Shown here piece after piece: positions 22,101 to 49,325 of a DNA stretch of 64,000 nt. Below the pieces are notes generated by a model. That model worked only from the letters and a program-made list of their open reading frames with translations. It did not search any database and was not told where the DNA came from. A program made the translations under genes and the position numbers. The DNA is taken from assembly GCA_028284935.1 (NCBI GenBank), contig JANQQQ010000022.1:1-64000 (forward strand). The letters are read 5' to 3'. Each line of letters starts with the position of its first letter. Position 1 is the stretch's first letter. This DNA is from Croceivirga sp. GTDB taxonomy: Bacteria > Bacteroidota > Bacteroidia > Flavobacteriales > Flavobacteriaceae.

Positions 22101-22117
22101 AGTTGTATATTGAATAA

Positions 22118-22137
22118 TCCAAAATACAAATTTTGGA
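22118..22137. promoter_or_regulatory. 8-4-8 inverted repeat in a divergent intergenic region
   Basis: The arms TCCAAAAT and ATTTTGGA flank ACAA in the 52-bp gap between the HD-Pycsar gene and the phosphoesterase-barrel gene. The position suits a shared operator. Confidence 0.4.
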
Positions 22138-22152
22138 ACGAAGCTCTTAACC

Positions 22153-25100
22153 ATGAAAAGAATTTACCTAACCGCCGCATCCCTACTTTTAATCTCAAGT
22201 TGTGCTACCTACAAGGCAAAATATGCTGAAATGCCATTCCAAAAACCAAATAAAAGTCAAATAGTTGAACCCGCCCATACCTTCTATCTCATTGGGGATG
22301 CTGGCTTGTCACCCATGGGACAATTGAACCCGGTACTGAAAGCTTTTCAATCGGAGCTTTCCACAGCACCCAAAAAAAGTACTGCCATTTTTCTGGGGGA
22401 CAATATTTACCCTGCCGGATTACCTAAAAAGGATAGTAAGCAGGCCTATGAAGCTGCAAAAAGCCATTTGGATGCACAAATCCAATCTGTTCGGGAGTAT
22501 GGGGGACAAACCATCTTTATTCCTGGTAATCATGATTGGTATGGTGATGGATTGAAGGGATTAAAGCGGCAAGAAAAATATATTGAAGACCATATGAAAG
22601 GAAAGGATGTATTTCTCCCTGAAAATGGTTGTCCTTTGGAAAAAGTCGAGATTAGTGATGATATCGTTCTGCTCGTTATTGATACGCAATGGTACTTGGA
22701 GGATTGGGACAAGCATCCTGGTATTAATGATGATTGTGAAATTAAGGACAGGGGAAAATTCTTGGATGAATTGGAGGGTCATATCAAAAAGAATAGGGGC
22801 AAAACCACCTTGATTGCATTGCACAATCCCATGTTTACCTATGGTTCCCATGGAGGCCAGTTTTCCTTCAAACAGCATATTTTCCCAACAGGAGGCAACC
22901 TCCCGCTTCCTTTTCTAGGAACGTTGGTGAACGTACTCAGAAGAACGTCTGGAGCCTCCAATGCCGACCAGTCCAACAAAATGTACAATGAATTAAAAAA
23001 ACGAATAGTAACCTTGGCCCAATATTCGGAGAAGGTGATTTTTGTTTCGGGTCACGAACATACCTTACAATACATTGTTGAGGAGAACACGCCACAAATT
23101 GTCAGTGGTTCAGGAGCCAAAAAGGGAGCCACTCGATTATTGAATGGTAGCCAATTCTCAACCGGTCAAATGGGATATGCAATTTTAAAGGTGTATTCCG
23201 ATGGATCTTCCAAGGTAAAGTTTATTGGGGTAGAAGATGATTCGAAAATGGACCTGTTCGAGTCACAAGTACTCCCAGCAAATAGGAAGGCCATAGCATT
23301 TAAAGGGGATTCCGATTTCCCTTCGCATATGGAAGCCTCCATTTATACCGATGAAGAGGTCGATAAAACTGGATTTTACAAATGGGTCTGGGGAGAGCGC
23401 TACAGAAAATATTACAATACCAGGGTAAAAGCCCCCACCGTGGATTTGGATACCCTTTACGGCGGATTGTCACCTGTTCGAAAAGGTGGAGGTAACCAGT
23501 CTAAATCATTGCGGCTACAGCATAAGGATGGTAGGCAGTTTGTGATGCGTGCGCTTCGCAAAAGTGCGGAATTATATTTACAGGCAATGGCCTTTCAAGA
23601 AAAATATGTGGTAGGGGAGTTTGAAGATACGTTTACGGAATCCGTCCTTAAAGACTTTTATACGGGGTCTCACCCTTATGCCCCCTTTACCGTTGGAGCG
23701 CTATCGGATGCCGTAGGAATTTATCACACCAATCCCCTATTGTTTTACGTTCCCAAACAGCGGGCATTGGAAGACTTCAATAGTGAGTTTGGAGATGAAC
23801 TTTATATGATTGAAGAGCATGTTTCCGACGGGCATAATTTAAAGAGTTTTGGAGAAACGAAAAAGATCGAAAGCACCGATGACTTGATCAAGAAGCTTCG
23901 AAGGGATGAGGAATACCAACTGGATGCCATGGCCTATGCCAAAGCACGCCTCTTCGATATGCTTATTGGTGATTGGGACCGTCATGTTGACCAGTGGCGC
24001 TGGGCCCAATTCAAACAGGAAGATGGCACTAAGGTGTTTCGACCAATTCCAAGAGATCGTGACCAAGCATTTTCCATTATGGGTGATGGGGCCTTGATGA
24101 ACTTCGCTACAAGGGCCATACCTGGCCTCCGTTTGTTTGAAGGTTTTGAAGAAGAATTTCGCAGTGTAAAAGGTTTCAACTCTTCCCCTAAGACCTTTGC
24201 CCTTGATATGGCACTACTTTCCGAAACTACTTTGGAAGATTGGGTGAATCAGGCCAGATTTCTTCAGCAGAATTTGGATGCCTCTACCCTCGATAGGGCC
24301 TTTGAACAATTTCCTGAAGAAGTTAGGGATGAAACGGTGGATGGAATAAAGAGGACGTTTTTAAAGCGGAAAGAAAGTTTGGTTGAAGTAGCCAAGGAAT
24401 ATTATGGCATACTAAATAAATACAGTGTGATTACGGGAACTGATAAAGACGATCATTTTGTAATCACCGATTCCGGAAAGGGTAATTTGGATGTTAAGGG
24501 TTATCGAATCAAAGGCGGTAAAAAAGCGGATGTATTTTTTGATAAGGAGTTTTCCCCAGAATTCAATAAGGAAATTTGGGTGTATGGCCTTGACGATGAC
24601 GACATTCTTGAGGTGGTTGGGAATTCCGGTAAAATCAAGGTTCGCTTAATCGGAGGTCAGAATAATGATGTCTATAAAATCAACGAAAAGTCCAGAAATG
24701 TTCATGTATATGATTTTAAGGATAAGAAAAACACCTATGATGAGGCCTTTGGGGGAAAACTCCATAAAATCAATGATTATGATACAAATACCTATCAATT
24801 CCTAAAAGTAAAAGCCAGTAATAATCAGTTCCTGCCTACAATTGGTTTCAATCCGGATGATGGATTAAGTATAGGTTTTGTCAATACCTATACCTTCAAC
24901 GGATTTCGGCAGAATCCGTTTACCCAACAGCATACCTTCAGTGGGGGATTTTATTTTGCCACAAGTGGATTTGATTTGAGGTATTCCGGGGAATTTGCCA
25001 ACGTATTTGAAAAAGTGAATCTGGAACTGGAGGCTCGTTTTACAAGTCCAAATTTTGCAATCAACTTCTTTGGCTTTGGGAATGATACCCCAAATTTTGA

Positions 25101-25857
25101 TGAGGATTTGGAGCTGGATTTTAATCGGGTAAAGATTAGACAATTTCATTTTTCTCCTTCATTGGTTTGGAGGGGCTTTTTGGGTTCCAAGGTAAAGTTG
25201 GGAGTGAGCTACGAAAACTTTGAAGTAGAAGAGACTGAGGATAGGTTTATTGAAGGATTCTTTACGGATCAAGGAAGAGATCCCCAACAAGATTTCTTTG
25301 GAATCAACGCCAGTTACGAATATTCAAATTCGGATAATGAAGCATTCCCTACCATGGGAATGGCATTTTCCCTAGAGGGAGGTTATACCATGAATTTAAG
25401 TGATTCCGAACGTGCTTTTGGTTATTTTATCCCCTCCCTGTCATTTGACTACAGATTGGTTCCCAGCGGCCAATTGGTTTTGGCTACGCAATTCAGGGGG
25501 CACTTTAATATCGGGGATGATTTTGAGTTTTATCAGGCTGCCAGTATCGGCGCCAATAATGGACTACGAGGATTTAGGTTTCAACGGTTTACGGGGAAAA
25601 CAGCATATTTTCAAAACACCGACTTACGATTGAGTTTTCGAGAGCAAAAAACAGGATTGTTGCCGGTCACTCCGGGTATTTATGGAGGATTCGATTACGG
25701 CCGCGTCTGGTTGCCGGATGACGATTCGGATACATGGCATAATTCTTACGGAGGAGGGTTTTTTGTAAATGGGGCCGATATCCTATCGTTCAATGCAGGC
25801 CTTTTCAACAGCTCGGACGGAATTCGCTTCGCCTTTGGACTAGGGTTTGGATTTTAA
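22153..25857 (+). CDS. Metallophosphoesterase / kinase-like / outer-membrane barrel fusion lipoprotein
   Basis: A 1234-residue exported protein with a lipobox (ISSC, C17). Residues about 42-360 are a calcineurin-like phosphoesterase: D49 (IGDAG), D83-N84 (LGDNIYP), N126-H127-D128 (GNHDW), HNPMF and SGHEHTLQY. Residues about 430-720 lack an obvious family, but contain a G606-DWDRH stretch and, 28 residues on, R634-DRDQAF. This spacing recalls the catalytic and metal-binding loops of atypical kinases (FAM20/PI4K type), which is an inference. A beta-rich linker with GGQNNDVY follows. From about residue 890 it is an Omp85/bacterial-surface-antigen barrel ending GLGFGF. Its 3' end overlaps the convergent propeller gene by 18 bp. 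Confidence 0.85.
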   Translation: MKRIYLTAASLLLISSCATYKAKYAEMPFQKPNKSQIVEPAHTFYLIGDAGLSPMGQLNPVLKAFQSELSTAPKKSTAIFLGDNIYPAGLPKKDSKQAYEAAKSHLDAQIQSVREYGGQTIFIPGNHDWYGDGLKGLKRQEKYIEDHMKGKDVFLPENGCPLEKVEISDDIVLLVIDTQWYLEDWDKHPGINDDCEIKDRGKFLDELEGHIKKNRGKTTLIALHNPMFTYGSHGGQFSFKQHIFPTGGNLPLPFLGTLVNVLRRTSGASNADQSNKMYNELKKRIVTLAQYSEKVIFVSGHEHTLQYIVEENTPQIVSGSGAKKGATRLLNGSQFSTGQMGYAILKVYSDGSSKVKFIGVEDDSKMDLFESQVLPANRKAIAFKGDSDFPSHMEASIYTDEEVDKTGFYKWVWGERYRKYYNTRVKAPTVDLDTLYGGLSPVRKGGGNQSKSLRLQHKDGRQFVMRALRKSAELYLQAMAFQEKYVVGEFEDTFTESVLKDFYTGSHPYAPFTVGALSDAVGIYHTNPLLFYVPKQRALEDFNSEFGDELYMIEEHVSDGHNLKSFGETKKIESTDDLIKKLRRDEEYQLDAMAYAKARLFDMLIGDWDRHVDQWRWAQFKQEDGTKVFRPIPRDRDQAFSIMGDGALMNFATRAIPGLRLFEGFEEEFRSVKGFNSSPKTFALDMALLSETTLEDWVNQARFLQQNLDASTLDRAFEQFPEEVRDETVDGIKRTFLKRKESLVEVAKEYYGILNKYSVITGTDKDDHFVITDSGKGNLDVKGYRIKGGKKADVFFDKEFSPEFNKEIWVYGLDDDDILEVVGNSGKIKVRLIGGQNNDVYKINEKSRNVHVYDFKDKKNTYDEAFGGKLHKINDYDTNTYQFLKVKASNNQFLPTIGFNPDDGLSIGFVNTYTFNGFRQNPFTQQHTFSGGFYFATSGFDLRYSGEFANVFEKVNLELEARFTSPNFAINFFGFGNDTPNFDEDLELDFNRVKIRQFHFSPSLVWRGFLGSKVKLGVSYENFEVEETEDRFIEGFFTDQGRDPQQDFFGINASYEYSNSDNEAFPTMGMAFSLEGGYTMNLSDSERAFGYFIPSLSFDYRLVPSGQLVLATQFRGHFNIGDDFEFYQAASIGANNGLRGFRFQRFTGKTAYFQNTDLRLSFREQKTGLLPVTPGIYGGFDYGRVWLPDDDSDTWHNSYGGGFFVNGADILSFNAGLFNSSDGIRFAFGLGFGF

Positions 25858-26709
25858 TTCATATTTATAAAGATTCCGTCCTTTGGTTTTGGATTGCTCA
25901 TCGGCAATAAGTAAGGTGTTTTCACCCAAAAAGCATACAGATTCAATTTGGGTAGGATATTGCAAATCAACAGTGGTTACTTTTGGTGAGGAAAAATTTT
26001 CGAAATCAAACTCGGTCAAGAGGTAAATAAAGCCATATCCGATAAGAACGATGGTTTTTCCATCTGCTGAAACGTCAGCACCAGTCACCGAACAGTGATC
26101 TTGATTTGTACAAAGGGTAAATTCTCCCAGAAACTCCGCTTTATGTTCACCTTTTTTATCGGGGACCCTATAGGCTAACGTTTTTCCTGAATAAGGTCTT
26201 GAGCGATTTTTCGTAAAAACATAGAAATAACCGTTCCAGTGAAAAAAGCCTTCAGCATCGAAAAGAAGTTCACTTTTTCTGGGAGGAAAGTCCTTTTGCT
26301 GGGGATAGTAAAACTTAATCTTTAGCGCTTTTGGAGTTTTTTTGTCCAACTGCTCTTTTGGAATACGGTAAATGACTAAGTCTTTTCGGTCATTATGGTT
26401 ATTGCCAAAATCTCCGATATAAACAGTCCCTTCCCGGGAAATGGTCAAATCTTCCCAATCTCCGTTTTTGGCATTCTCAATTTTAAGTTTTTTTACGGGA
26501 TTTCCCTTCAAGTCCAGTTGGTAGAGTACGTCTTTGTTTCCATTGTCCTCAATGGCCCAAAGCTTACCTTCTTTGTCCATGTCAATACCGGAAATCTCGG
26601 AGAGTTGTGATGGAAAACGTCCTAGATACTCAAGTTTTCCAAAATACGCTTGTTGGGCGCAGGACTGCATCATCAATAGTAATCCCGTATAGAAAGCCCA
26701 TTTATTCAT
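25840..26709 (-). CDS. Beta-propeller lipoprotein of unknown function
   Basis: A 289-residue protein with a lipobox (MQSC, C17 of the longest start). Repeated blades follow, resembling SdiA-regulated/phytase-like propellers: SEISGIDMDKEGKLWAIEDN, GDWEDLTISREGTVYIGDFG, SELLFDAEGFFHWNGYFYVF and SVTGADVSADGKTIVLIGYG. The acidic loops could bind calcium. It is the last gene of a six-gene minus-strand operon and overlaps the upstream GyrI-like/SRPBCC gene by 8 bp. The substrate or ligand is unknown. Confidence 0.78.
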   Translation of the reverse strand: MNKWAFYTGLLLMMQSCAQQAYFGKLEYLGRFPSQLSEISGIDMDKEGKLWAIEDNGNKDVLYQLDLKGNPVKKLKIENAKNGDWEDLTISREGTVYIGDFGNNHNDRKDLVIYRIPKEQLDKKTPKALKIKFYYPQQKDFPPRKSELLFDAEGFFHWNGYFYVFTKNRSRPYSGKTLAYRVPDKKGEHKAEFLGEFTLCTNQDHCSVTGADVSADGKTIVLIGYGFIYLLTEFDFENFSSPKVTTVDLQYPTQIESVCFLGENTLLIADEQSKTKGRNLYKYELKSKP

Positions 26710-27604
26710 TGGATTCCTTTATTGGCATGTAGATTTCAGTTTTCCAATTCAACTCTTCACCACCCACATTAGGGTTGTTGTAAAATATTTCCACTGGATG
26801 GTGTTCCACCTCAATATCATTTCTTCCGGCATAATCCAACAAGGTATACCAAGCCCTATCTGAGGTGATATAGTTCCCGTTGTATTCTGCTTTTAGCGCC
26901 CTTTTGGGAAATATCCTTTTGTATTGGATGTCGGTGCCAATGGGTAACCTTTCGGAGCGGATAATCGGCTGTCCAAAATTATAGTAAAGACTATCATTTT
27001 CCATATCCCATTGAGTCACCTCCAACATGGGTGGACCATCCAATTCTACACCATTGACATGAAGTTCGTTGGTCAGATAGGAAAAATTCTTCATCATACC
27101 TCCCGCTTTTTGGAACTGGGTGACCTTTACTGGTATATACGCCAAATACTTCGAGGGAATGTCCTCTTCCCCAACAATGGTCACCCTGATGTTCTTGGTA
27201 TGATGATCAAGGTTCTCCATAAAGTCAAGAACCGTTTTCTTGCTTCGCCTAACAAAATCATTTTCTTTGAACGGAACTTGGATTTTGTTCATAAGACTAT
27301 GGTTTTCATCCCTTACATTGACGATGACTTTTGAGGTAGAATCCGTGAGGGGCAGAATCTTCCAATGGTAGTGATGTATGGAATCCCCAAAGCTAACTTC
27401 TTGCGAAAGGTGGTATAGGTCGCCCTCTTGTTTGATTTTACGGATAGTATCCAGCGTTTGATCCCACAATTTTAAGGATTGGTTAACGGTTCCAGGTACG
27501 GCCTTGGCCTCAAAACGAATGGTGTAGTCTGATGGTTTGATAAGTAAATACCAAAGAAGGCCACCAAGAATAACGAAAAGAATACCAAAAATTAACTTCT
27601 TCAT
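26702..27604 (-). CDS. Membrane-anchored SRPBCC / GyrI-like ligand-binding protein
   Basis: A 300-residue protein with one N-terminal membrane segment (LIFGILFVILGGLLWYLLI). A probable SRPBCC half (about 25-140) is followed by a GyrI-like/AraC-effector-binding half (about 150-300) ending VEIFYNNPNVGGEELNWKTEIYMP. Such domains bind small hydrophobic ligands. No DNA-binding domain is present, so it probably acts as a periplasmic binding or enzymatic protein. It sits 6 bp after the haloperoxidase gene and overlaps the propeller gene, so it belongs to the same operon. Confidence 0.75.
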   Translation of the reverse strand: MKKLIFGILFVILGGLLWYLLIKPSDYTIRFEAKAVPGTVNQSLKLWDQTLDTIRKIKQEGDLYHLSQEVSFGDSIHHYHWKILPLTDSTSKVIVNVRDENHSLMNKIQVPFKENDFVRRSKKTVLDFMENLDHHTKNIRVTIVGEEDIPSKYLAYIPVKVTQFQKAGGMMKNFSYLTNELHVNGVELDGPPMLEVTQWDMENDSLYYNFGQPIIRSERLPIGTDIQYKRIFPKRALKAEYNGNYITSDRAWYTLLDYAGRNDIEVEHHPVEIFYNNPNVGGEELNWKTEIYMPIKESNE

Positions 27605-27610
27605 TTTTAA

Positions 27611-28957
27611 TTAATTAATGTGAACGACTTCGTTTTCTTTTTTCATGGTCAACGTACTGACGATAAAAGCACCAAGATCTCGCCCTTGTTTCACGCCTAC
27701 TTCCACAGCTGTCCTATAATGGATACCACCATACATTCTACTGATGGCGGCTTCATCTGCCGCAGAAGTAAATGATGGAAAGGAACGAACAGGCAATCCA
27801 TATTGAACTTCAGTATCATCGTCAAAAGCAAAATTATCACCATAAATACTGGTTAGGGCCACTGCCGCTGCTCCAGATACCACACTGTGACCACTGGTAT
27901 ACTCTGGAAATGGGGGGGTCTGCAGTACAGGTTCCCAGCTTTCATCGATATGGTCGTTGATAAGCGTTTCAGGACGTATGAGGTTACTGCGGTATTTTTC
28001 ATCCCAACAACTAATAAAAGCGTCTGCGATGGCAATCGAAGTTTTGGTATAGGTGTGCACGGTTTCGATCACATTGGCATTGGTTTTTCGGGCGGCTATC
28101 TTGGCAATACCAATCCAATGTGCACCAGGGGTAATTTTTTTGGTTGCAAACATTAAATGGCCCCGGGTTACGGAGACATAGGGATTGCAATCCCAAAACT
28201 GTGCTATGGCCACCTCTTCCGATTCGTCACCCTTTGAAGTAATCTCATTGCTAATGTCATAAACCTCTTTGACCTCATTGAAAAAGTCGGATCCCTGGTC
28301 CATGGAAAAAGCAGGTGGTGGCGTTGGTTTGAACTGTCCAGCTGAGTCTATGACAAAAGGGCGGATCTTGTTCCAATGCGGTTCTATGCCATCCATATAA
28401 GCAGGGGGAGTAGGCTGCCAGCGAGCGGGTTCATCCGTGTCAACCGAAAACTTGGGCATGGTACGGGTCTGTTTGTAATTATCCTTGTCCATCCAAACCG
28501 AAATATGTTCCGAAACGGTAAGACCATAATTCTTGGAAGCACTGAATACATCTTCATTGGTAGCTTTCCAAACGGTATATAAACTATCCCGATAGGTAGT
28601 AATCATCTCTTCCGAAAAAATAAGCTTTCGGCTCAGGTCCATATGTGCAATCAACGCTGCCAACTCAAAGTTGATGTTTTCTGATGTAGGTTTAGGAATG
28701 GACTGAAGTCCGGTCAATTGACCTGCCAACGATTGGTAATCCTTGTTGTTTTTCGCAATAATCTCATAAGCCCCAATATTTGGATAGGCATAAATTCTGC
28801 TCGCAACGGGAGGAGAAAAAATATCGTGAACCATCACCTCGGTCACCTTGTCCACAGAGGCATGATAATCTTCTGGTGTTATTTCTATAGCTTGTTTTTC
28901 CTTTACGCAGGAAAATAGAATAAAGGAAAAAACCAATGAAAACTGTACTCTTTTCAT
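27611..28957 (-). CDS. Vanadium-dependent haloperoxidase / PAP2-family lipoprotein
   Basis: A 448-residue protein with a lipobox (ILFSC, C17). The vanadate/phosphate-binding motifs are present in order: K and R in KYRSNLIRPET, PEYTSGHSVVSG, and S-R with H in SRMYGGIHYRT. Where acid phosphatases of this superfamily have an aspartate four residues after that histidine, this protein has alanine (HYRTA), which argues against phosphatase action. Haloperoxidases oxidise halides with peroxide. The actual activity is untested. ATG 28957 is preferred to a TTG at 28963. It lies 2 bp after the first FG-GAP gene. Confidence 0.82.
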   Translation of the reverse strand: MKRVQFSLVFSFILFSCVKEKQAIEITPEDYHASVDKVTEVMVHDIFSPPVASRIYAYPNIGAYEIIAKNNKDYQSLAGQLTGLQSIPKPTSENINFELAALIAHMDLSRKLIFSEEMITTYRDSLYTVWKATNEDVFSASKNYGLTVSEHISVWMDKDNYKQTRTMPKFSVDTDEPARWQPTPPAYMDGIEPHWNKIRPFVIDSAGQFKPTPPPAFSMDQGSDFFNEVKEVYDISNEITSKGDESEEVAIAQFWDCNPYVSVTRGHLMFATKKITPGAHWIGIAKIAARKTNANVIETVHTYTKTSIAIADAFISCWDEKYRSNLIRPETLINDHIDESWEPVLQTPPFPEYTSGHSVVSGAAAVALTSIYGDNFAFDDDTEVQYGLPVRSFPSFTSAADEAAISRMYGGIHYRTAVEVGVKQGRDLGAFIVSTLTMKKENEVVHIN

Positions 28958-28959
28958 CT

Positions 28960-31900
28960 TCAATTTTGTTTGGAATTGATTTTATAAACTTCTACTTCAC
29001 TATCATTATAAACGGCCAATAAATAGCCCCTCCCGTTTAGGGAAAGTATATCCAAATGCCGTATGGATTTCTGTGTAAGGTCCAATCCTAGTTGATTGCC
29101 CAAAATTATTTTATTTTCAGATGTTATCAAGGCCCCGGGGAATGAATCAAATCGACCATGATAGGGTTTTACCCCAAAGTAATTTCCTCCTGCCAAAACT
29201 TCAAGATGGCCATCACCATCAAAATCAGAGGACACAAAGTCCATAATGGGGGAAACCTGTAAGGTGCTTGGGAAAGGTAGGAATTCAAAATTTCCTTTGT
29301 TATTCTTTAAATATCCGGAGGCCAAGGTGCTCACTTCAAGTATTTCTGCCTTTTCCAATTGATCGGCTTCAAAAATGTCTTCAACTGATTTTCCCGCAAA
29401 AGAGGAATAGGTATTAAATTTTTTACGGAGACTGACCATTTGGGCAGCCAATGCGTCCAGACCTTCCAGCGTATAGTAGGTGCCATTTTTCGCGAAAGTC
29501 GTAATGGTTTCGGTTTGTCCGTTGTTGTCAAAATCGGAATAGTACAAGCGCAGTGGATTTTTTTCTGAGGCATTGAATTTGCTATTGAGTCCCCAATTTC
29601 CCAATAGATAATCCATATCACCGTCGCTATCAATATCAAATGGGTGAATACTCTGCCAAAGTCCAGATGCATTGATTTTTATGTTTTCAACCAGCCTTCC
29701 ACTCGAGTTTTTAAAGAAACGTGGGGACATCCATTCACCGACTACAATAAGGTCCTTCATACCATCGTGGTCAAAATCGTTCCAAATAGCGTCAGTGACC
29801 ATGCCGGATAATTCAAAACTATGGTCAATTTCAAACCTTCCATTCCGATTGATAAGAAGGTAAGAAGGGACTTCTTTGCCAAATCGGGCCGTTTCGGTTT
29901 GCCCCCCAATGAAAATATCCAAATCACCATCATTGTCGTAGTCAAAGGGTTTTATTACTGAAGTGTTTTGAAAAAACACTGGAAAATCTGTCTTGACCCA
30001 GCCAGAAGGATTGGAGGAATAAAGTTGGTCGGTTAGGGGTTTTGAATTGCCGAAGAAGTCGCCACCACCATTCCCTACCAGTAAATCATTGAAATTATCC
30101 CCATTAAAATCAGCAATAAAGGCTGAAATATTTTCAGTAATGGAATCATTCTTTGTTGCTGCAAATCCCATTGCCTCAAAGCCGTCTTGATTTTGGATGA
30201 AAACTGTTGAACGAATAAACTTGGAACCGCCAAAGAACAAATCCTCCTTACCGTCTTGGTCAATATCGCCTTTGGCAAAAGCTGGACCCCTGTCAGAGAT
30301 GCGATAGGGAATTAGTTTTTCCCGGTTAAAATCCAGATAGTTGTCCTCTACATGTGTAAAGTATATCCCAAGGTTGGTGGTGTCTTTTTCAAACAGGGGT
30401 GTTTCCTTCTTTTTTTTGTTCGAGGTAAAAACCTCTCTAGAGCTTTCTGGAGCTATTTTGAGGGTTTTATTTGCTGGAATACTGGTCAAGGTTTGATAGG
30501 TGTTATCTGGCCAAACTACCCGTATTGAATCGATTTGTTCCTTATCACCAAGGCCAAAATGGAGTATGGGCTGAGAGCTCGCCTGAAAACCTCGTGCTGG
30601 GAATAGTTCTTTAAACTGAAGTTGACCATCGTGATAGAGATATACTTTTGAGCCGATTCCGAATTTGTTTTTTTCACCATGCTCCAACGTAACCTTGAGG
30701 TAATTTGTTGAGTTATCCACCTTGTTTTCGTAGATACTGGCAACTGCATTGAGGTTGTTGACCACGATATCCAAGTCACCATCATTGTCCAAATCTCCGT
30801 ATGCCGAGGCTCCTGAAACCAAAGTGTCATTGTCCATCCAATTTTTGGATTTATCCAAAAAAGAAAGATTGCCATCCCCTTGAAAAATATAGTTTTGGGT
30901 CATTCCAGATGGAATCATGTCCAGTGCCTTTTGGTCCACCAACTTGGTATTGTTGATCTTATTCTGAATCTGTGTGTTGGAAATGAATTTGATGAAATCC
31001 AGGTCATTGGGGCGTTTTGGAATTCCATTGGCTATAAATAAATCTTGATTTCCGTCTTGATCGTAATCCCCAAAAAGCGCACTCCAACTCCAATCGGTAG
31101 CTGCAACCCCACTTAAGAGTGCAGTTTCCAAGTATTTTCCATTAGGCTGGTTCACGTAGAGCATGTTCCTCGTGAATTGGTAATGGTACCCAAAATCTTG
31201 AATCCTCATTTTTTGAACCTGTACGTTGTCATCCCCTTCAGAAGCTTTCAACGGAACCTCATCTTCAGGCAACATGTCCAAGGAAATTAAATCAGGCAAC
31301 CCATCATGGTTGATATCTGCAACATCACTACCCATAGAGAATCGAGAAGTGTGTCCAAAGTACTTTCTTAGGCTTTCCGTAAAGGTACCATCCCCATTGT
31401 TGAGGTAATAATAGTCGTCCTCATGGAAATCATTGCCCACATAAATATCAGGATAGCCGTCTGAATTAAAGTCGGAAACGGCCAACCCTAAACCATAGCC
31501 ATTTATTCCTCCGTAGATACCGGCTTCCTCGCTCACATCAATGAATTTTCCTTCGTCATTTCGCAGCAGTTTGTCGCCCGTCTCATAATTGCGTTGATAG
31601 CGTAAATCTGCTTTTCCATAAGAGCCTGAAGTATGGACGGCATGGTTCAATAGGTACAGGTCCAAGTCCCCATCCAAATCATAGTCGAAAAATGATGCAG
31701 CAGAACTATAAGATTCAAAATCCAGATCGTATTCTTGTGCCCTTTCCGAAAATGTAAGATCCCCATTATTGATATAAAGTTCATTATACCCTCCAAAACC
31801 GTTGATACCTACCACGGCGCAAACATATATGTCCAACAATCCATCCCCATTGACATCGGCCATAACGGTACCTGTATTCCAATCACTTTCTCCTGCTACA

Positions 31901-32199
31901 CCGGCTTGATCGGTGATATCCTCGAACGTCATCCCTCCTTTATTCAAGTATAGTTTGTTTTTTACCTGATTGCCCGAGAAGTAGATATCCGGAAGGCCAT
32001 CATTGTTGATATCCCCAACAGCAACGCCACCTCCATTGTAGAAATAGAGATAATCCAAAATATTAAGGTCATCAGTTTCTTTAACCGTATTGGTAAAATC
32101 AATACCTGTATGATTGGGTGAAGTGTTGTTAAAAAGTGTCCCTACTTGGGTACACCCAAATAATACTGAACCTAAAATGTACATGAACCATTTCCTCAT
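28960..32199 (-). CDS. FG-GAP/VCBS repeat lipoprotein with ASPIC-UnbV domain (copy 1)
   Basis: A 1079-residue exported protein with a lipobox (LFGC, C16). Two sets of calcium-type FG-GAP blades (for example DINNDGLPDIYFSGN, DVNGDGLLDIYVC, DYDNDGDLDIFIGG, DIDSDGDMDYLLGNWG) flank a central ASPIC/UnbV (CRTAC1-type) segment near 540-580 (FPARGFQASSQPILHFGLGD, then DSIRVVWPDN). This suggests two propellers joined by the ASPIC domain. The ligand is unknown. It is the third member of a tandem triplet. Its ATG overlaps the TGA of the upstream paralogue (ATGA), and it is followed after 2 bp by the haloperoxidase gene. Confidence 0.88.
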   Translation of the reverse strand: MRKWFMYILGSVLFGCTQVGTLFNNTSPNHTGIDFTNTVKETDDLNILDYLYFYNGGGVAVGDINNDGLPDIYFSGNQVKNKLYLNKGGMTFEDITDQAGVAGESDWNTGTVMADVNGDGLLDIYVCAVVGINGFGGYNELYINNGDLTFSERAQEYDLDFESYSSAASFFDYDLDGDLDLYLLNHAVHTSGSYGKADLRYQRNYETGDKLLRNDEGKFIDVSEEAGIYGGINGYGLGLAVSDFNSDGYPDIYVGNDFHEDDYYYLNNGDGTFTESLRKYFGHTSRFSMGSDVADINHDGLPDLISLDMLPEDEVPLKASEGDDNVQVQKMRIQDFGYHYQFTRNMLYVNQPNGKYLETALLSGVAATDWSWSALFGDYDQDGNQDLFIANGIPKRPNDLDFIKFISNTQIQNKINNTKLVDQKALDMIPSGMTQNYIFQGDGNLSFLDKSKNWMDNDTLVSGASAYGDLDNDGDLDIVVNNLNAVASIYENKVDNSTNYLKVTLEHGEKNKFGIGSKVYLYHDGQLQFKELFPARGFQASSQPILHFGLGDKEQIDSIRVVWPDNTYQTLTSIPANKTLKIAPESSREVFTSNKKKKETPLFEKDTTNLGIYFTHVEDNYLDFNREKLIPYRISDRGPAFAKGDIDQDGKEDLFFGGSKFIRSTVFIQNQDGFEAMGFAATKNDSITENISAFIADFNGDNFNDLLVGNGGGDFFGNSKPLTDQLYSSNPSGWVKTDFPVFFQNTSVIKPFDYDNDGDLDIFIGGQTETARFGKEVPSYLLINRNGRFEIDHSFELSGMVTDAIWNDFDHDGMKDLIVVGEWMSPRFFKNSSGRLVENIKINASGLWQSIHPFDIDSDGDMDYLLGNWGLNSKFNASEKNPLRLYYSDFDNNGQTETITTFAKNGTYYTLEGLDALAAQMVSLRKKFNTYSSFAGKSVEDIFEADQLEKAEILEVSTLASGYLKNNKGNFEFLPFPSTLQVSPIMDFVSSDFDGDGHLEVLAGGNYFGVKPYHGRFDSFPGALITSENKIILGNQLGLDLTQKSIRHLDILSLNGRGYLLAVYNDSEVEVYKINSKQN

Positions 32200-35100
32200 T
32201 TTAAGGCGAATATTTTGGGTTTTCCTTCATTGATGCCAGCAATTAAAAATCGATTACCGTTTTTATCCGTAACGGCTTTCAAATGTTTGACCTCATCACG
32301 CACTACGAACCCACTCTCGTCATAGTTTTTCCATTCAAAATTTAGATGGCCATCGCCCAAAAGGACATTGCCAAAGTTGGCATCCAATCTTGAGAATTGG
32401 GGCTTGAATTCAAAATTATTTCCCGCCATAATTAAATCAAGATGACCGTCATTATTAATATCACTACAAGTAATATCACAGACACATGAAAATTGGACCC
32501 GAGGGGGTAATTTGTTGATTTTAAACTGGCCGTTTCCTTCATTAATGGCAATTACAGAGGCAGATAACCTGCTTTTTTTCACAATGGATTGTTCAATGAT
32601 TTCTTTTGGGAATAACTCTTGAATGGTTCTTTTTGCATACTCCGAAGCCCTCAGATTTTCCTTTTTTAGGGATACCAACTGGTTGGTCACCTCTTTTTTC
32701 TGGTGGATGGGATAGTCCTTCCCATCTTCAGTTATCGTCACTAGTTGTTCGATGGTACCGTTATTATCAAAGTCATTGATCCATAATTTCATGGGATGCC
32801 CTTCTGTTGGTCTGTAATGCAGGTTCTCACCATGATTCCCTAGGATAAGGTCTAAATCCCCATCACCATCCAAATCAGCTGCTTCCAAAGTGTTCCACCA
32901 ACCATCTAGGCTATCTAAGGAAGTGTTGATTCGCTGGACCCTTCTCCCAGAATTTTTATGGATTTTAGGTGCGTCCCAGTCTGAGACGGTCACCAAATCG
33001 TCTTTGCCATCCCCATCCATATCAGCCCAAATGGCATCAGTGACCATACCTTCATCTTTAAGGTTATACCCTCTTCTTTCAGTGGCATCCACAAAAATCC
33101 CATCTCGATTTTCCAATAAAAGGTGATTGGGGTCAAGACCGTAGACACCAACTACACTTCTGGAGCCTATAAAGACATCTGTGTCACCATCCCCATCATA
33201 ATCCTTGGGTGCAATAATGGAAACGTTTTTAAAAGTAGTTGGCAAATTTTGTTCGGAAGGACTAAAATTTCCATTCCCATCGTTAAGGTAAAGTCGGGTT
33301 CTGTAGGTGTTATCTTGGCCTACCTCATTACCGCCGCTTCCTACCATGAGATCCATATCCCCGTCACCATCGGTATCCAAAAATGCCGCTGCCGTATCTT
33401 CCAAGGATTTATCCCTATCAAAAGCCCTCGAGGGCTTTGGCTGAAATTTCCCTTTGCCCAAATGGGTATACATGATTGCCGCAGTACCTTTTGCACCACC
33501 AATAAAAACATCTTCATGACCATCACCGTTCACGTCTGCTACTGCCATTGCAGGTCCTTCTTGAGACAACTTATTGTAAATAAGGCCTTCATAATCAAAA
33601 TCATTATATGAGTTTTCAATATGGGCGATTAAATTGGAATTGTCCAGTTCTTGAATAAGGGTATTTTTAATTTTATATGAATCAGGTGTATAGGTATCCT
33701 GAGCATCCTTTTGGTAAAGTTCCAAGCGTTGATTGGCCTGGACTTCTTTAAGGACCATGGTTTTATCGTTTGGCCAGACGATTTGGATGGAATCCAGTTT
33801 TTTGGTGTTCCCCAAGCCCAAAGTCATAACATAATCAATAGAGGACTGAAACCCCCTTGAGGGTATCAGCTCTTGATTAACGGTATTTTCACCAAAATAG
33901 AACGTTACCGAAGACCCAATTGCGAACGGATTGCCGTCTTGCCCATTTAGTTTGAGTTGTATGTGGTTGTGTGGTAATTGATCATTGGTATTATTGCGAT
34001 ACACAAAGGTGTTGGTGTTCACATTGTTTATTACTAGGTCAAGATCCCCATCATTGTCAAGATCCCCATAGGCCGCCCCGTTGGAGCGAGTGGGCAAATC
34101 AAAACCCCAATCTTTGTTGGCGTTATCAAAAGTGATGTCCCCATTGTTTTTGAATGCAAAATTGGGTTGCGGTTTTATGGGCATTTTGTTAATGATGGAA
34201 TCAATGGATTCCTTTTTCCCGGTCAATGCCATTTTTTGGATGATCTCATTAGCAAAGAAATCCACAAAATCCAAATCGGTAAGGTCATGGTTGATACCAT
34301 TGGTCACAAAAATATCCTTAAAGCCATCATTGTCCATATCAAATATGAGTCCTGCCCAACTCCAGTCCGTAGCATCTATTCCACTATAATAAGCTACTTC
34401 AGAGAAGGTGCCGTTTCCGTTATTAAGCTGTAAGGTATTCTGAATGTACTGCTGGTAAAAATCCTTGTTTCGTTTTAGATCATGGACATTATATCCTTCA
34501 AACTCCATCACAGATTTCACCCTTTCTTCAGGTTCAGGGAGCATATCAGTAATAAATATATCATTGTGACCATCATTATTGATGTCTGCAATATCAATAC
34601 CCATTGCGGATAGGCTCAAATGTTGCGTGTAATCCTTGATTTCTTCTGTAAAAGTGCCATCCTTTTGGTTGATATATAGGTAATCCCGCTCATAGAAGTC
34701 ATTGGAGACATAAATATCGGGCCATAGGTCACTATTAATGTCAGTAACCAGAACTCCTAAGCCAAAACCGATCAAACTTCCATAAATTCCTGCCTCTTCA
34801 CTGACATCAACAAATTTTCCCCCGTCATTGCGCAACAGCATATCACCAACTCCCCTAAAAATATGGGGAACTCCCTCCCAGTCCTGCGCACGCACTTCCC
34901 GTTGTTCCGCATAACCAAGACTGCTAACGGGGATGTTGCTGTTATTCAGAATATAGGCATCCAAGTCCCCGTCCTTATCATAATCAAAAAAAGAAGCATG
35001 GGTGGAAAATCCTGTTTTTGCCAAATTAAATTCTTGGGCGCGCTCGGTAAAGGTCAAATCCCCGTTATTGATATAGAGATCATTATCATGATTATTCCCT

Positions 35101-35534
35101 TCTAAATTTCCAGCGTTACTTACATAAATATCCAAGAGACCATCAGCGTTAATGTCCGCCATGGTTACCCCTGTGGACCAAGGTTTGTTACCTCCAACTC
35201 CAGCGTTTAAGGTAATGTCTTCAAATTGCAACCCTCCTTTATTAAGGTATAGTTTATTGGGTTCCATATTACCAGTAAGATAGATGTCTGGTAATCCATC
35301 GTTATTAATGTCGCCTATGGCTACGCCACCACCGTTATAAAAATTACGGTACTTGAAAATATTGAAGTCCTTTTGGTTTTCTACATAATTAACAAAGTCA
35401 ATACCGCTTTCCTCAGCGGTCAATAGGGAAAAAAGTGGCTCTTTTGTTGTGGCCGAAACTTCATTCTTTGTTTCATTGCAGGCAATTAGTAATAGAAGCG
35501 TTGTAATCCAGGGGATTATGTATTTTGATTTCAT
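32196..35534 (-). CDS. FG-GAP/VCBS repeat lipoprotein with ASPIC-UnbV domain (copy 2)
   Basis: A 1112-residue paralogue with a lipobox (LIAC, C19). It has the same order: acidic blades, the ASPIC segment (SRGFQSSIDYVMTLGLGN then DSIQIVWPND), and a second blade set (DVNGDGHEDVFIGGAKG, DYDGDGDTDVFIGSRS, DLDGDGDLDLILGNHG). Copies share long stretches such as NFYNGGGVAIGDINNDGLPD but have diverged clearly, so the triplication is not recent. ATGA overlaps at both ends indicate translational coupling. Confidence 0.88.
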   Translation of the reverse strand: MKSKYIIPWITTLLLLIACNETKNEVSATTKEPLFSLLTAEESGIDFVNYVENQKDFNIFKYRNFYNGGGVAIGDINNDGLPDIYLTGNMEPNKLYLNKGGLQFEDITLNAGVGGNKPWSTGVTMADINADGLLDIYVSNAGNLEGNNHDNDLYINNGDLTFTERAQEFNLAKTGFSTHASFFDYDKDGDLDAYILNNSNIPVSSLGYAEQREVRAQDWEGVPHIFRGVGDMLLRNDGGKFVDVSEEAGIYGSLIGFGLGVLVTDINSDLWPDIYVSNDFYERDYLYINQKDGTFTEEIKDYTQHLSLSAMGIDIADINNDGHNDIFITDMLPEPEERVKSVMEFEGYNVHDLKRNKDFYQQYIQNTLQLNNGNGTFSEVAYYSGIDATDWSWAGLIFDMDNDGFKDIFVTNGINHDLTDLDFVDFFANEIIQKMALTGKKESIDSIINKMPIKPQPNFAFKNNGDITFDNANKDWGFDLPTRSNGAAYGDLDNDGDLDLVINNVNTNTFVYRNNTNDQLPHNHIQLKLNGQDGNPFAIGSSVTFYFGENTVNQELIPSRGFQSSIDYVMTLGLGNTKKLDSIQIVWPNDKTMVLKEVQANQRLELYQKDAQDTYTPDSYKIKNTLIQELDNSNLIAHIENSYNDFDYEGLIYNKLSQEGPAMAVADVNGDGHEDVFIGGAKGTAAIMYTHLGKGKFQPKPSRAFDRDKSLEDTAAAFLDTDGDGDMDLMVGSGGNEVGQDNTYRTRLYLNDGNGNFSPSEQNLPTTFKNVSIIAPKDYDGDGDTDVFIGSRSVVGVYGLDPNHLLLENRDGIFVDATERRGYNLKDEGMVTDAIWADMDGDGKDDLVTVSDWDAPKIHKNSGRRVQRINTSLDSLDGWWNTLEAADLDGDGDLDLILGNHGENLHYRPTEGHPMKLWINDFDNNGTIEQLVTITEDGKDYPIHQKKEVTNQLVSLKKENLRASEYAKRTIQELFPKEIIEQSIVKKSRLSASVIAINEGNGQFKINKLPPRVQFSCVCDITCSDINNDGHLDLIMAGNNFEFKPQFSRLDANFGNVLLGDGHLNFEWKNYDESGFVVRDEVKHLKAVTDKNGNRFLIAGINEGKPKIFALK

Positions 35535-38500
35535 AAAGAATCCTTTTTAGTCAGAAAAATTGGGATATCATCATTGCGGCCAATGACATAACCTTTCTTA
35601 TTTCCTATGGTTATCGGCTCGATGGCATTGACTTGACCATCAATCTTTAGATGTTCAATATTCTCGAAACTACCTTTACCATCATTGTACAACACCACAC
35701 CATGAAGGGCATCCAACCTACCTAATTGTGTGCTAACGTGATAGTTGTTCCCCATCAAAATAATGTCCAGAAAATCATCATTATTTACATCAGCGCTTAC
35801 GATTTGACGAATTTGGGATACTTGTACAAATCGGGGAAGGTCTTTCTTTTCAAATGTATTGTTTCCCTTGTTTTCATAGTAAGAAGTCTCAAGTTCAAAA
35901 ACCTCTTTTCGTTGTGCATCATTGAGCTTCCCTTTGCCAAATAATTCTTCTAATGACGCTGAAGCAAATTTTTGATAGGAAAGAAATTCTTTGTTGAGAA
36001 ACGGAAGCTGTTTTGCCAATTCGTCTTTTGAAGCAAAAGGAGTCTCAGTTTCGTTATGGAAATAAGTAACTAAAGGTTCCACGGTTCCATTGTCATCAAA
36101 ATCATTACGATATAGGGTTATTGGTCTTTCTACTGAAGCGTTGAACTTGGAGTTCAAACCCCAATTGCCGCAAATCATATCCCAATCACCATCCTTATCA
36201 AAATCCGCCATTTCTATGTTGTTCCACCAACCGTGGGTTTTTTCCAGTCCGTTGTTTTTCTGGAGTTGCAGTTGTTTTCCGTCATTGAGGAGAATGGAAA
36301 TAGGAGTCCAATGCCCAACGGCTATTACATCCTCTTTCCCATCCGAGTTAAGGTCAAGGATTTCAATATCCTTCAAATTACCCAGCAACCTAAAATCAGG
36401 AGCGAATTTGGAGGTGACGTCTTCAAAGTTGCCTTTTCCGTTATTAAATAGAACAAAATTTTTTGAGGTTTCCCCAAAATTTCCTGGTATCCCATCGGCT
36501 ATGAGGATGAGGTCTAAGTCTCCGTCTCCATCAAAATCGGTTGTCTTTATTGAAGCTAAGTTGCCTTCAATGGATGCGTTAAAGGCGTTTTCACTTTGTC
36601 TCAGTGTCCCTTTATGGTTAACATAAAGCTGGGGTCTAATATTCCCCCCTGAGGTAAATTCATTTCCGCCGTATCCTACAATTAGGTCTTGCCAACCGTC
36701 GCCGTTGGCGTCAAAGAATAGGCTACAGGTAGTTTCTTTTATATCATTTTCGTCAAATAATTCATTTTGGGAAGGTAAGAAGTCACCATTAGATTTTTGG
36801 GTAAATAATCGACTGGATTGTCGTTTTGCTCCGCCGATAAAAACGTCTTGCCTATCATCGTTGTTGAAATCACCTATGGCTACGGAAGGTCCTTCATTGG
36901 AACTGGCAAATGGGACCAAAGGTTCTCGGTCAAAATCCAATGAAACGTTCTCTTTGTGGGAAAAAGGAAGTATGGAATCCATAGTGATAAAATGATTCTT
37001 TAAGGATTGTGTTCCATCTTTTTCAGTAATAGCTTCTTCATAGGTAAGGGTAACGGTCTGATTGGCCGTCACGTCCCTTAGCCATTGTATTTTACCATCT
37101 GGCCATCTTACTTTTAAGGAATCGATTATAGAATCTTTGCCCAATCCAAAATATAATTTGGAGGGAACCGCTGATAAATATCCTTTGGCAGGAAAATTTT
37201 CTTGGGTTTGCATCTCACTGGAATAGAGTACAACTTTTGCTCCAATCCCAAACCTATTGTTCTCCGGACCATTGAATTCAATGGTTATGGAGGTTGTCCC
37301 TACTGAGGTGTTTTCCAAAAAGGTAACGGGCTCATTTATAGTATTAATGACCAAATCCAAATCACCATCATTGTCAAAATCCGCATAAACACTTCCGTTG
37401 CTGAATGAAGGAATGGATTTCATCCATGAGGAGGAAACGTCCTCAAAATTTAGATTGCCCTTATTTTTAAATACATAATTGGGCACTTTTTTCTGTGGGA
37501 TTTCTTGGGTCATTGGTAAGTCGCTTTGACTCAATCCATTGTCGATTCTTCTCTGGATGTCTTCATTGGCTATAAAATTCATGTAATCCATGTCATTGGT
37601 GGCGCCTACTATCCCATTGGAAATAAAAAGGTCTTTATGACCGTCGTTATCCAAATCTACAGGTAGCACGCCCCACGACCACTCTGTTGCGGCAATGCCA
37701 CTTAAATAGGCTATCTCTGAAAAGTGTTCCCCATCAATGTTCATATGGAAGGTGTTCTGCATATACTGGGGGCTGTACCCTTTCTTTAAGTATTGACGAT
37801 AAATGGGGTATGCGTATTCGAGCCCTGAAGACTTATAGGTTTCGAGATTTTCTGGAAGCATATCCAATGAAATAATATCAGAGAGTCCGTCATTATTGAG
37901 ATCGGCAATGGCGTTACCCATGGAAAAATGGGTGGTGTGTCCAAGTTTCATGGCATCATTTGAGATGACTTCCTTAAAACTTCCATCTTTTTGATTGATA
38001 TAGAGGTAATCATTTTCAAAGAAATCATTTCCCACATAGATATCGGGATAGGTATCATTGTTTACATCAGAAATGCTCAAGCCCAAACCATAACCAATTT
38101 TGCCTTGATATATTCCAGCTTCTTCACTTACATCCTCAAAGCGTCCGTTATTGTTTTTAAAAAGAATATCCCCATATTTCGGATGATATCCTTCACGAAG
38201 TGTACCTCGTCCATAATTGCGATTGGGGTGAACCGAGTGGTTTAAGAGGTACATATCCTGGTCGCCATCCAAATCGTAATCAAAAAACGCGGCATGTGTA
38301 CTCAATCCTGAAAAATCCAAACCATATTTGGCTGCAGCTTCCTTAAATGTTGGGACGCCGTCGTCATTTATACCTTGATTCACATAAAGAAGGTTTTTCC
38401 CTTTTAGGTTTTTATATCCGGAAACCTTACAGATGTAAATATCCAAAAGCCCATCGTTATTGATATCTACATGGGTAGCGCCAGTGGACCAGTCTTTTGT

Positions 38501-38818
38501 AGGCACTATTCCTGAAACTGCAGTGGTTTGCTTGAACGAAAGATTACCCTGGTTGATGTACAGCTCATCTTGAACCTGATTTCCGGTAAAAAATAGATCG
38601 ATAAGCCCATCATTGTTAAAATCTTCGGCTATCACTCCCGCACCATTGTAATAGTACAAATAGCTTAAAATATTGAGTTCAGGGGAATTATTAAGTGTAT
38701 TGGCAAAATGTATTCCTGTCTGCTCTGGGTTTAGCTCTATTAGGAGATGTTCTGTATTCCTTGAGCAGGCGCAAACAAGAAAAAAAAGCAAAAGAAATTT
38801 TAAGAAATCCAGCTTCAT
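35531..38818 (-). CDS. FG-GAP/VCBS repeat lipoprotein with ASPIC-UnbV domain (copy 3, first in operon)
   Basis: A 1095-residue paralogue with a lipobox (FLVCAC, C16 or C18). FG-GAP blades (DFNNDGLIDLFFTGN, DINNDGLLDIYICK, DYDLDGDQDMYLLN) are followed by the ASPIC segment (FPAKGYLSAVPSKLYFGLGK then DSLKVRWPDG) and a second set (DFNNDDRQDVFIGGAKR, DFDKDGDWDMICGNWG). ATG 38818 is preferred to a TTG at 38830, which would lengthen the signal peptide with charged residues. It is the first gene of the operon, with a 10-bp inverted repeat 21-50 bp upstream and a terminator beyond that separating it from susD. Confidence 0.87.
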   Translation of the reverse strand: MKLDFLKFLLLFFLVCACSRNTEHLLIELNPEQTGIHFANTLNNSPELNILSYLYYYNGAGVIAEDFNNDGLIDLFFTGNQVQDELYINQGNLSFKQTTAVSGIVPTKDWSTGATHVDINNDGLLDIYICKVSGYKNLKGKNLLYVNQGINDDGVPTFKEAAAKYGLDFSGLSTHAAFFDYDLDGDQDMYLLNHSVHPNRNYGRGTLREGYHPKYGDILFKNNNGRFEDVSEEAGIYQGKIGYGLGLSISDVNNDTYPDIYVGNDFFENDYLYINQKDGSFKEVISNDAMKLGHTTHFSMGNAIADLNNDGLSDIISLDMLPENLETYKSSGLEYAYPIYRQYLKKGYSPQYMQNTFHMNIDGEHFSEIAYLSGIAATEWSWGVLPVDLDNDGHKDLFISNGIVGATNDMDYMNFIANEDIQRRIDNGLSQSDLPMTQEIPQKKVPNYVFKNKGNLNFEDVSSSWMKSIPSFSNGSVYADFDNDGDLDLVINTINEPVTFLENTSVGTTSITIEFNGPENNRFGIGAKVVLYSSEMQTQENFPAKGYLSAVPSKLYFGLGKDSIIDSLKVRWPDGKIQWLRDVTANQTVTLTYEEAITEKDGTQSLKNHFITMDSILPFSHKENVSLDFDREPLVPFASSNEGPSVAIGDFNNDDRQDVFIGGAKRQSSRLFTQKSNGDFLPSQNELFDENDIKETTCSLFFDANGDGWQDLIVGYGGNEFTSGGNIRPQLYVNHKGTLRQSENAFNASIEGNLASIKTTDFDGDGDLDLILIADGIPGNFGETSKNFVLFNNGKGNFEDVTSKFAPDFRLLGNLKDIEILDLNSDGKEDVIAVGHWTPISILLNDGKQLQLQKNNGLEKTHGWWNNIEMADFDKDGDWDMICGNWGLNSKFNASVERPITLYRNDFDDNGTVEPLVTYFHNETETPFASKDELAKQLPFLNKEFLSYQKFASASLEELFGKGKLNDAQRKEVFELETSYYENKGNNTFEKKDLPRFVQVSQIRQIVSADVNNDDFLDIILMGNNYHVSTQLGRLDALHGVVLYNDGKGSFENIEHLKIDGQVNAIEPITIGNKKGYVIGRNDDIPIFLTKKDSL

Positions 38819-38838
38819 TCCCAATTTCAAAAGTGACG

Positions 38839-38923: not shown

Positions 38924-38952
38924 AAAAGACCCGCTTGTAGAGCGGGTCTTTT
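38924..38952. terminator. Intrinsic terminator after susD
   Basis: A 12-bp perfect stem (AAAAGACCCGCT with its complement) with a 5-base loop and T-runs on both strands. It lies 22 bp past the susD stop and isolates SusCD transcription from the FG-GAP operon. Confidence 0.88.
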
Positions 38953-45123: not shown

Positions 45124-45154
45124 GTTTGCCCTTCAGCTTTCCTAGTTTGTTTAT

Positions 45155-47458: not shown

Positions 47459-47461
47459 ACT

Positions 47462-49324: not shown

Positions 49325-49325
49325 A

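Follow-up and report, generated by a model that had tools for sequence, protein, structure and literature searches.

A six-gene flavobacterial operon combining a ZgVIPO1-type haloperoxidase with FG-GAP/ASPIC lipoproteins: a candidate exported halide-oxidising module

ZgVIPO1 of Zobellia galactanivorans, a crystallised vanadium haloperoxidase (PDB 4cit and 4usz), was reportedly called an iodoperoxidase in the title of its 2014 paper. For bacterial ASPIC lipoproteins, only a general adhesion proposal was found in the literature consulted. Here, both kinds of gene are described in one operon within a 64,000-nucleotide stretch of Croceivirga sp. (contig JANQQQ010000022.1, positions 1 to 64,000, forward strand), which is hereafter called the window. 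The operon runs on the minus strand from position 38818 down to 25840, and its genes are transcribed in the order F1, F2, F3, V, G and P:

F1: 35531–38830 in the open reading frame (ORF) list, with a TTG start, minus strand; from an in-frame ATG at 38818 (35531–38818), an FG-GAP/ASPIC lipoprotein of 1095 amino acids (Pfam FG-GAP_3, 2.1e-68; UnbV_ASPIC, 5e-21)
F2: 32196–35534, minus strand, FG-GAP/ASPIC lipoprotein of 1112 amino acids (Pfam FG-GAP and UnbV_ASPIC)
F3: 28960–32199, minus strand, FG-GAP/ASPIC lipoprotein of 1079 amino acids (Pfam UnbV_ASPIC, 3.2e-23)
V: 27611–28963 with a TTG start, minus strand, with an ATG two codons on at 28957 (Pfam PAP2)
G: 26702–27604, minus strand, GyrI-like protein with an N-terminal helix (Pfam GyrI-like, 8.5e-7)
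P: 25840–26709, minus strand, lipoprotein, probable beta-propeller (Pfam matches below the cut-offs)

The initial annotation had described these six genes as tightly packed and all equipped with a lipobox or membrane anchor, and both statements were confirmed. Every junction in the ORF list is an overlap or a gap of at most 6 bp. Specifically, F1/F2 and F2/F3 overlap by 4 bp each (ATGA), F3 and V overlap by 4 bp from the TTG start or are separated by 2 bp from the ATG start, the V/G gap is 6 bp, and G and P overlap by 8 bp. An export or membrane signal is present in all six proteins: lipobox-type cysteines were recognised by eye in F1 (VCAC), F2 (LIAC), F3 (LFGC), V (LFSC) and P (MQSC), and G carries an N-terminal helix at residues 2–22. 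At its far end, P overlaps the convergent plus-strand gene Mph (22153–25857) by 18 bp.

V matched 4cit with an E-value of 1.3e-223 and is 69% identical to the protein of a Zobellia-genus locus that equals 4cit; in one of nine Zobellia-genus genomes, the V protein agrees with 4cit at 450 of 450 residues. The positions K323, R330, S357, G358, H359, R409 and H415, which we take from the vanadium haloperoxidase literature to form the vanadate pocket, are present in V and unchanged in its alignment to 4cit. All seven residues are kept in 79 of 79 V proteins from the window's taxonomic family, 76 of which have a lipobox-like start. Among the V ORFs outside the family with at least 38% identity (n = 72), the K, R, H, R and H positions are kept in all 72, the S in 66 and the G in 68. 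The haloperoxidase-type enzyme of the initial annotation can thus be sharpened on the strength of the 4cit match, the pocket residues and the 69% identity, and its sequence firmly places V as a vanadium-dependent haloperoxidase lipoprotein of the ZgVIPO1 type. Its halide would be iodide, used with H2O2, as suggested by homology to ZgVIPO1 and by the published name of that enzyme.

Conservation within the family was assessed in the best 80 of 595 matched V stretches, a set that is biased to close kin and in which some stretches end at contig ends. Neighbour counts were taken from ORF calls and distances from tblastn on either strand; tblastn was chosen because the ORF caller missed genes such as G in Zobellia-genus genomes (G in loci L263 and L265–L267; V was missed in L079, L180 and L234). 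By ORF calls, F1 and F2 were neighbours in 33 loci (32 within 20 bp), F2 and F3 in 54 (53), F3 and V in 59 (57), V and G in 59 (40), and G and P in 42 (39). F1 was seen in 44 of the 80 stretches, some of them ended by the contig, and an ASPIC gene lay within 400 bp of V in 66 by tblastn. The coupling of the operon is real and conserved and not due to chance, as the same junctions recur in related loci; rare adjacency of the six genes in related genomes, which the initial annotation had named as one outcome that would count against it, was not what was found. From the other side, 89 of 149 family genomes had F3-like matches reaching at least E 1e-180, and V lay directly behind F3 in 30 of the 30 best family F3 loci, a set that counts each genome once and contains the locus of the window itself; five more matches at E 0 fell below that line.

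In all nine Zobellia-genus genomes, a V ortholog (at least 85% identity) is preceded by F1–F3, and the gene identical to ZgVIPO1 lies in the order F1-F2-F3-V-G-P. A loss of G in some of these genomes was ruled out, as tblastn recovered all 301 residues beside V in nine of nine. Six of the nine also carry a second haloperoxidase, which follows SusC-SusD-F-F in six of six such loci. Two Arenibacter loci (L031 and L048) have the order F2-F3-V-G-P, and at a second Arenibacter locus (L274, n = 1) an ASPIC gene precedes V. In L034, L063, L068 and L076, more distantly related ASPIC genes (about 40%) are present but separate from V, which lies behind what appears by eye to be a xylose locus. In L088, the V slot of F2-F3-V-G is filled by a divergent haloperoxidase (38%), and the canonical V (71%) lies downstream beside P, an apparent enzyme swap. 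One Zobellia-genus locus (L261:8733–13397) shows F3 and V in a single open frame of 1554 amino acids; because the V signal peptide is intact and a poly-A run stands where relatives have the stop, a small frame change is likelier than a working fusion, and the case was not counted. Two further long open frames from the F3 search (L285 and L295) ended before V on inspection.

Outside the family, V was searched in two overlapping draws, one of 149 genomes of the class at E 1e-60 (V in 19) and one of 345 genomes of the phylum at E 1e-80 (V in 60). After G377 (V at the contig start) and 11 same-family genomes were left out, the outside set comprised 87 V loci from 58 genomes and 21 family codes, with one V counted per locus. 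A same-strand ASPIC gene on either side lay within 400 bp of V in 44 of the 87 loci and within 5 kb in 59, and the adjacent cases (within 400 bp) were spread over 15 of the 21 families. Of the 19 genomes with V (E 1e-60), 17 carried ASPIC genes, compared with 47 of the 130 lacking V (Fisher's test, 2e-5, uncorrected for kinship). The link is asymmetric, in that ASPIC genes are often found with no V near. P and Mph, by contrast, were within 10 kb of V in none of the 87 loci. Shared descent of the chromosome stretch alone is therefore an unlikely cause of the difference between the ASPIC genes and P/Mph, and V and its ASPIC genes have been held together or reassembled.

Two types of additional gene recur beside ASPIC genes. 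The ASPIC-haloperoxidase pair of L123, L190, L194 and L199 is immediately preceded by one gene type, found at no more than 5 kb from V in 4 of the 87 outside loci; weak matches to copper monooxygenases and haem-binding proteins were obtained for its L123 copy, and three of the four loci have a thioredoxin-like gene in front of it. In L122, L125 and L191, a gene of about 190–200 amino acids, which has no Pfam match in its L125 copy, lies between two ASPIC genes; a relative precedes the ASPIC gene of L179, and similar-sized genes occur in L013 and L078.

F1–F3 are all above the Pfam cut-offs for FG-GAP and UnbV_ASPIC, and F2 is the most and F1 the least conserved of the three. With a slightly widened pattern, 11 motifs of the Dx[DN]xDG type were counted in F1 and 13 each in F2 and F3; this is the calcium-blade motif described in PMC3123361. 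The large calcium-type propellers of the initial annotation are thus supported at the level of sequence motifs. By sequence, F2 matches murine CRTAC1 (9etn) with an E-value of 1.5e-14. Its AlphaFold2 model, built from 24 sequences, has a predicted local distance difference test (pLDDT) score of 78, with 135 residues below 50 that restrict finer claims; 9etn was also the best PDB match of this model (E 5e-26; template-modelling score of 0.72 by target length). The model suggests a CRTAC1-like N-terminal half followed by a second set of blades.

G is above the GyrI-like Pfam cut-off (29.8 bits versus 26). Its AlphaFold2 model (pLDDT 90) has a helix at residues 2–22, and Foldseek returned CtaZ (7zhe, 6.8e-9) as the best match, followed by rhodamine-binding CTR107 proteins. 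Of the earlier GyrI/SRPBCC label, the GyrI-like part is upheld by Pfam and Foldseek, and the SRPBCC-like character of the N-terminal domain is a reading of the predicted structure. G is nearly limited to the family: it lies no more than 400 bp from V in 62 of the 80 family loci, and only 2 of the 87 outside loci have it within 5 kb.

P falls just below the Pfam cut-offs (Phytase-like, 9.8e-6; SdiA-regulated, 3.3e-4) and matches designed Pizza propellers at 2.8e-8, and its sequence makes a beta-propeller lipoprotein probable. Of the 80 family loci, 59 have P and 53 have Mph at no more than 5 kb from V. P is the loosest of the six, as 0 of 87 outside loci have it within that distance. Because both are absent near V in all 87 outside loci, P and Mph were ruled out as parts of the wider module. 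Mph (22153–25857, plus strand) encodes a calcineurin-like phosphoesterase of 1234 amino acids that is near V only inside the family, and its C-terminal part resembles by eye an outer-membrane barrel. Beyond it lies a minus-strand gene (20904–22154) whose product combines an HD domain with a membrane region of the PycTM (Pycsar effector) type (Pfam, 2.1e-36). Of the 80 family loci, 51 have an HD match no more than 10 kb from V, and 1 of the 87 outside loci has one within 5 kb; the gene seems to be a settled part of the chromosome and not of a mobile defence island.

Upstream of the operon, the window contains the following features:

38924–38952, minus strand: terminator-like hairpin of 12 pairs with a T-rich tail, between susD and F1
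38975–40603, minus strand: SusD-family lipoprotein (Pfam SusD_RagB, 1.7e-18)
40622–43750, minus strand: SusC-family TonB-linked outer-membrane protein (TIGR04056, 1.1e-210)
44101–51209, plus strand: LacI regulator, glycoside hydrolase family 65 (GH65) gene and two GH13-type (alpha-amylase) genes, a divergent alpha-glucan locus neighbouring the operon and outside it

The SusCD pair stands 156 bp before F1 on the same strand. Because the hairpin lies in between, the operon is its own unit by anatomy, and SusCD probably forms a separate transcription unit in the window. A terminator scan gave 23 sites versus 18 (standard deviation 4.5) in shuffled sequences, and of these sites we relied only on the susD-F1 hairpin, which has the most pairs; a promoter scan gave 54 sites versus 44 (standard deviation 6.4). 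In seven family loci with SusC, SusD and F2, the susD-F spacers are 312–368 bp long, some with hairpins by eye. A single transcript from SusCD into F1 is not favoured because of the hairpin and these long spacers.

Consecutive genes for SusC, for SusD (or an ORF matching it in size) and for an ASPIC protein occur in that order in 25 of the 87 outside loci; in L182 and L183 this row is downstream of V. Additionally, 10 of the 87 loci (L121, L136, L185, L187, L128, L133, L205, L208, L209 and L216) have a GH65 gene of one type no more than 5 kb from V. Its L121 copy matches 7fe3 at 6e-238, and the other nine copies were matched to L121. In L121, L136, L185 and L187, it stands directly before V and behind ASPIC/G genes, and in L133 no ASPIC gene is found in the stretch. 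We favour a nutrient-capture role from the SusCD, GH65 and L123-type neighbours, with no single substrate named.

Based on these observations, we propose that the operon encodes an exported halide-oxidising module beside SusCD-type capture, that is, a system like a polysaccharide-utilisation locus but built on a haloperoxidase; we give this reading an even chance. V, at or near the outer membrane, would oxidise iodide (possibly other halides in relatives) with H2O2 to hypohalous acid, a step and a halide specificity suggested by homology. From their position and fold, F1–F3 might be the binding or scaffold part, possibly in contact with V, in the seat that binding lipoproteins take beside SusCD pumps, and G, anchored by its single membrane helix, might bind a small amphipathic product or ligand. 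The wider system, SusC-SusD-(ASPIC)n-haloperoxidase, would be a capture locus with an oxidant maker in place of a glycosidase, presumably located at the outer surface and functionally linked to SusCD. More tentatively, and in our view rather unlikely, SusC, SusD, calcium propellers and haloperoxidase could constitute an oxidative uptake system widespread in Bacteroidota, in which hypohalous acid made at the surface activates or captures a cargo (in marine members, iodine itself) for TonB-driven import; the Ca2+ of the propellers would then explain the Ca2+ need of Arenibacter described below.

Several observations weigh against an exported module of V and ASPIC proteins coupled to SusCD. Of the 80 family loci, 14 lack an ASPIC gene at 400 bp or less from V. 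Outside the family, the stretch contains no ASPIC gene on the strand of V in 27 of 87 loci (three of them with less than 1.4 kb of upstream room), and in one more it lies beyond 5 kb; these misses cluster in particular families (f75, 6 of 6; f63, 5 of 7; f36, 5 of 13) and at V proteins below 38% identity (9 of 14). Among outside V ORFs below 38% identity (n = 20), K323, R409 and H415 are each kept in 17 and missing in three. By the rule applied to the family, a lipobox was found in only 51 of 90 outside V ORFs. Acidic residues after the lipobox cysteine are strong only in the family SusD proteins (mean 3.0); because the residues at this place are mixed in V and F (1.3–1.6 acidic, 1.4–1.8 basic), surface display of these proteins stays conjectural. 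The SusCD pair of the window is cut off by the terminator-like hairpin and stands beside alpha-glucan genes. Moreover, three of the six ASPIC genes of the genome have no V nearby (L148–L150), and in one case only one ASPIC gene (38% to F2) and no haloperoxidase come after SusC-SusD (L148; G000:C5, 62000–81900). ASPIC genes behind SusCD without any haloperoxidase therefore argue for a wider role of the propellers.

Among the alternatives, the operon is a gene-level candidate for biological iodine capture, in which V would make HOI or I2 at the cell surface, and the propellers with a SusCD-type pump, or G, would hold iodine and pass it on, which would yield the H2O2- and calcium-dependent iodine accumulation known from a marine Flavobacteriaceae strain; we consider this unlikely. 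It is in line with the title under which ZgVIPO1 was reportedly published and with loci L031 and L048, which belong to Arenibacter strains other than C-21 and carry F2-F3-V-G-P. Iodine accumulation by Arenibacter C-21 itself needs glucose, O2 and Ca2+, glucose being dispensable with an H2O2 source or an iodide-oxidising system; a haloperoxidase was proposed, and at least five PAP2 proteins of this strain are homologous to 4USZ (PMC5064120). Z. galactanivorans can also accumulate iodine (PMC9296495). However, there is no known iodine carrier among the operon genes. Families throughout the phylum also have V relatives with ASPIC neighbours, and we know of no link to iodine for them.

A role in defence or detoxification is doubtful. 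Here, V would use up algal H2O2 or make hypohalous acid against competitors or signals, and the F proteins would only anchor or adhere. For marine flavobacteria, a function as adhesion domains at the cell surface has been suggested for FG-GAP and other repeats (PMC2668756), and one vIPO of Zobellia, given there as vIPO3, rises on Ascophyllum compared with alginate (PMC9296495). The SusC-SusD pair beside ASPIC in 25 of 87 loci and GH65 close to V (5 kb or less) in 10 of 87 point instead to nutrient capture.

The same sugar genes could mean that the module is an accessory of carbohydrate use and oxidatively treats a glycan or glycoconjugate for SusCD, with nearby sugar genes as partners, which seems quite unlikely. 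The GH65 type directly before V in four loci, the SusCD pair of the window adjoining GH65 and two GH13-type genes, and the xylose isomerase, xylulokinase and sugar symporter genes (by eye) adjoining V in several family loci are what such a role would lead one to expect. However, this GH65 type is missing from the 5 kb around V in 77 of the 87 distant loci, the sugar genes vary between loci, and the terminator-like hairpin separates the operon from SusCD. Phosphate acquisition, with V as a PAP2-fold phosphatase acting with phytase-like P and the metallophosphatase Mph, would fit the PAP2 match of V, the sub-threshold Phytase-like match of P and the adjacency of Mph and P, but is very improbable given the 69% identity of V to a protein whose crystal structure was published under the name of iodoperoxidase and the absence of P and Mph near V in all 87 outside loci.

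For the halide-oxidising module that we prefer, no paper linking haloperoxidases with ASPIC/FG-GAP proteins was found among the open-access papers listed, which is weak evidence of absence, and no function assigned to the haloperoxidase-propeller pairing was found there. The surprise lies in the breadth of the haloperoxidase-ASPIC-SusCD link; the system would be a SusCD-type capture locus with an oxidant-making enzyme, and its mechanism is conjectural. The operon ties the crystallised Zobellia iodoperoxidase to ASPIC lipoproteins in nine of the nine Zobellia-genus genomes examined, and the roles of both are directly testable in a marine bacterium, Z. galactanivorans, for whose laboratory strain DsijT a haloacid dehalogenase study includes a knockout mutant (PMC8490876).

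Compared with known systems, G resembles the GyrI-like/SOUL ligand-binding proteins (CtaZ 7zhe, CTR107 and SbmC) in its C-terminal domain and differs by an extra N-terminal domain and the N-terminal membrane helix. The CRTAC1/ASPIC family, represented by murine CRTAC1 (9etn), shares fold and sequence signal with the N-terminal half of F2, whereas the F proteins come from bacteria, are lipoproteins of roughly double the length and have extra blades behind. With SusCD polysaccharide-utilisation loci, the operon has in common that F1–F3 occupy the seat of surface lipoproteins and that SusC and SusD share a row with ASPIC genes in 25 of 87 outside loci. Unlike in those loci, the enzyme is a haloperoxidase and not a glycosidase, and no carbohydrate-active Pfam family was found in the six operon genes, the GH65 and alpha-amylase genes belonging to the divergent unit. 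SusC and SusD probably form a unit of their own in the window, and by gene order they are in the same unit as the ASPIC gene in those 25 loci. ZgVIPO1 (4cit and 4usz) is the closest relative: it shares 69% identity, the pocket residues and the lipobox with V, no difference was found at the enzyme level, and the gene for the identical protein sits in the same six-gene order in a Zobellia-genus genome.

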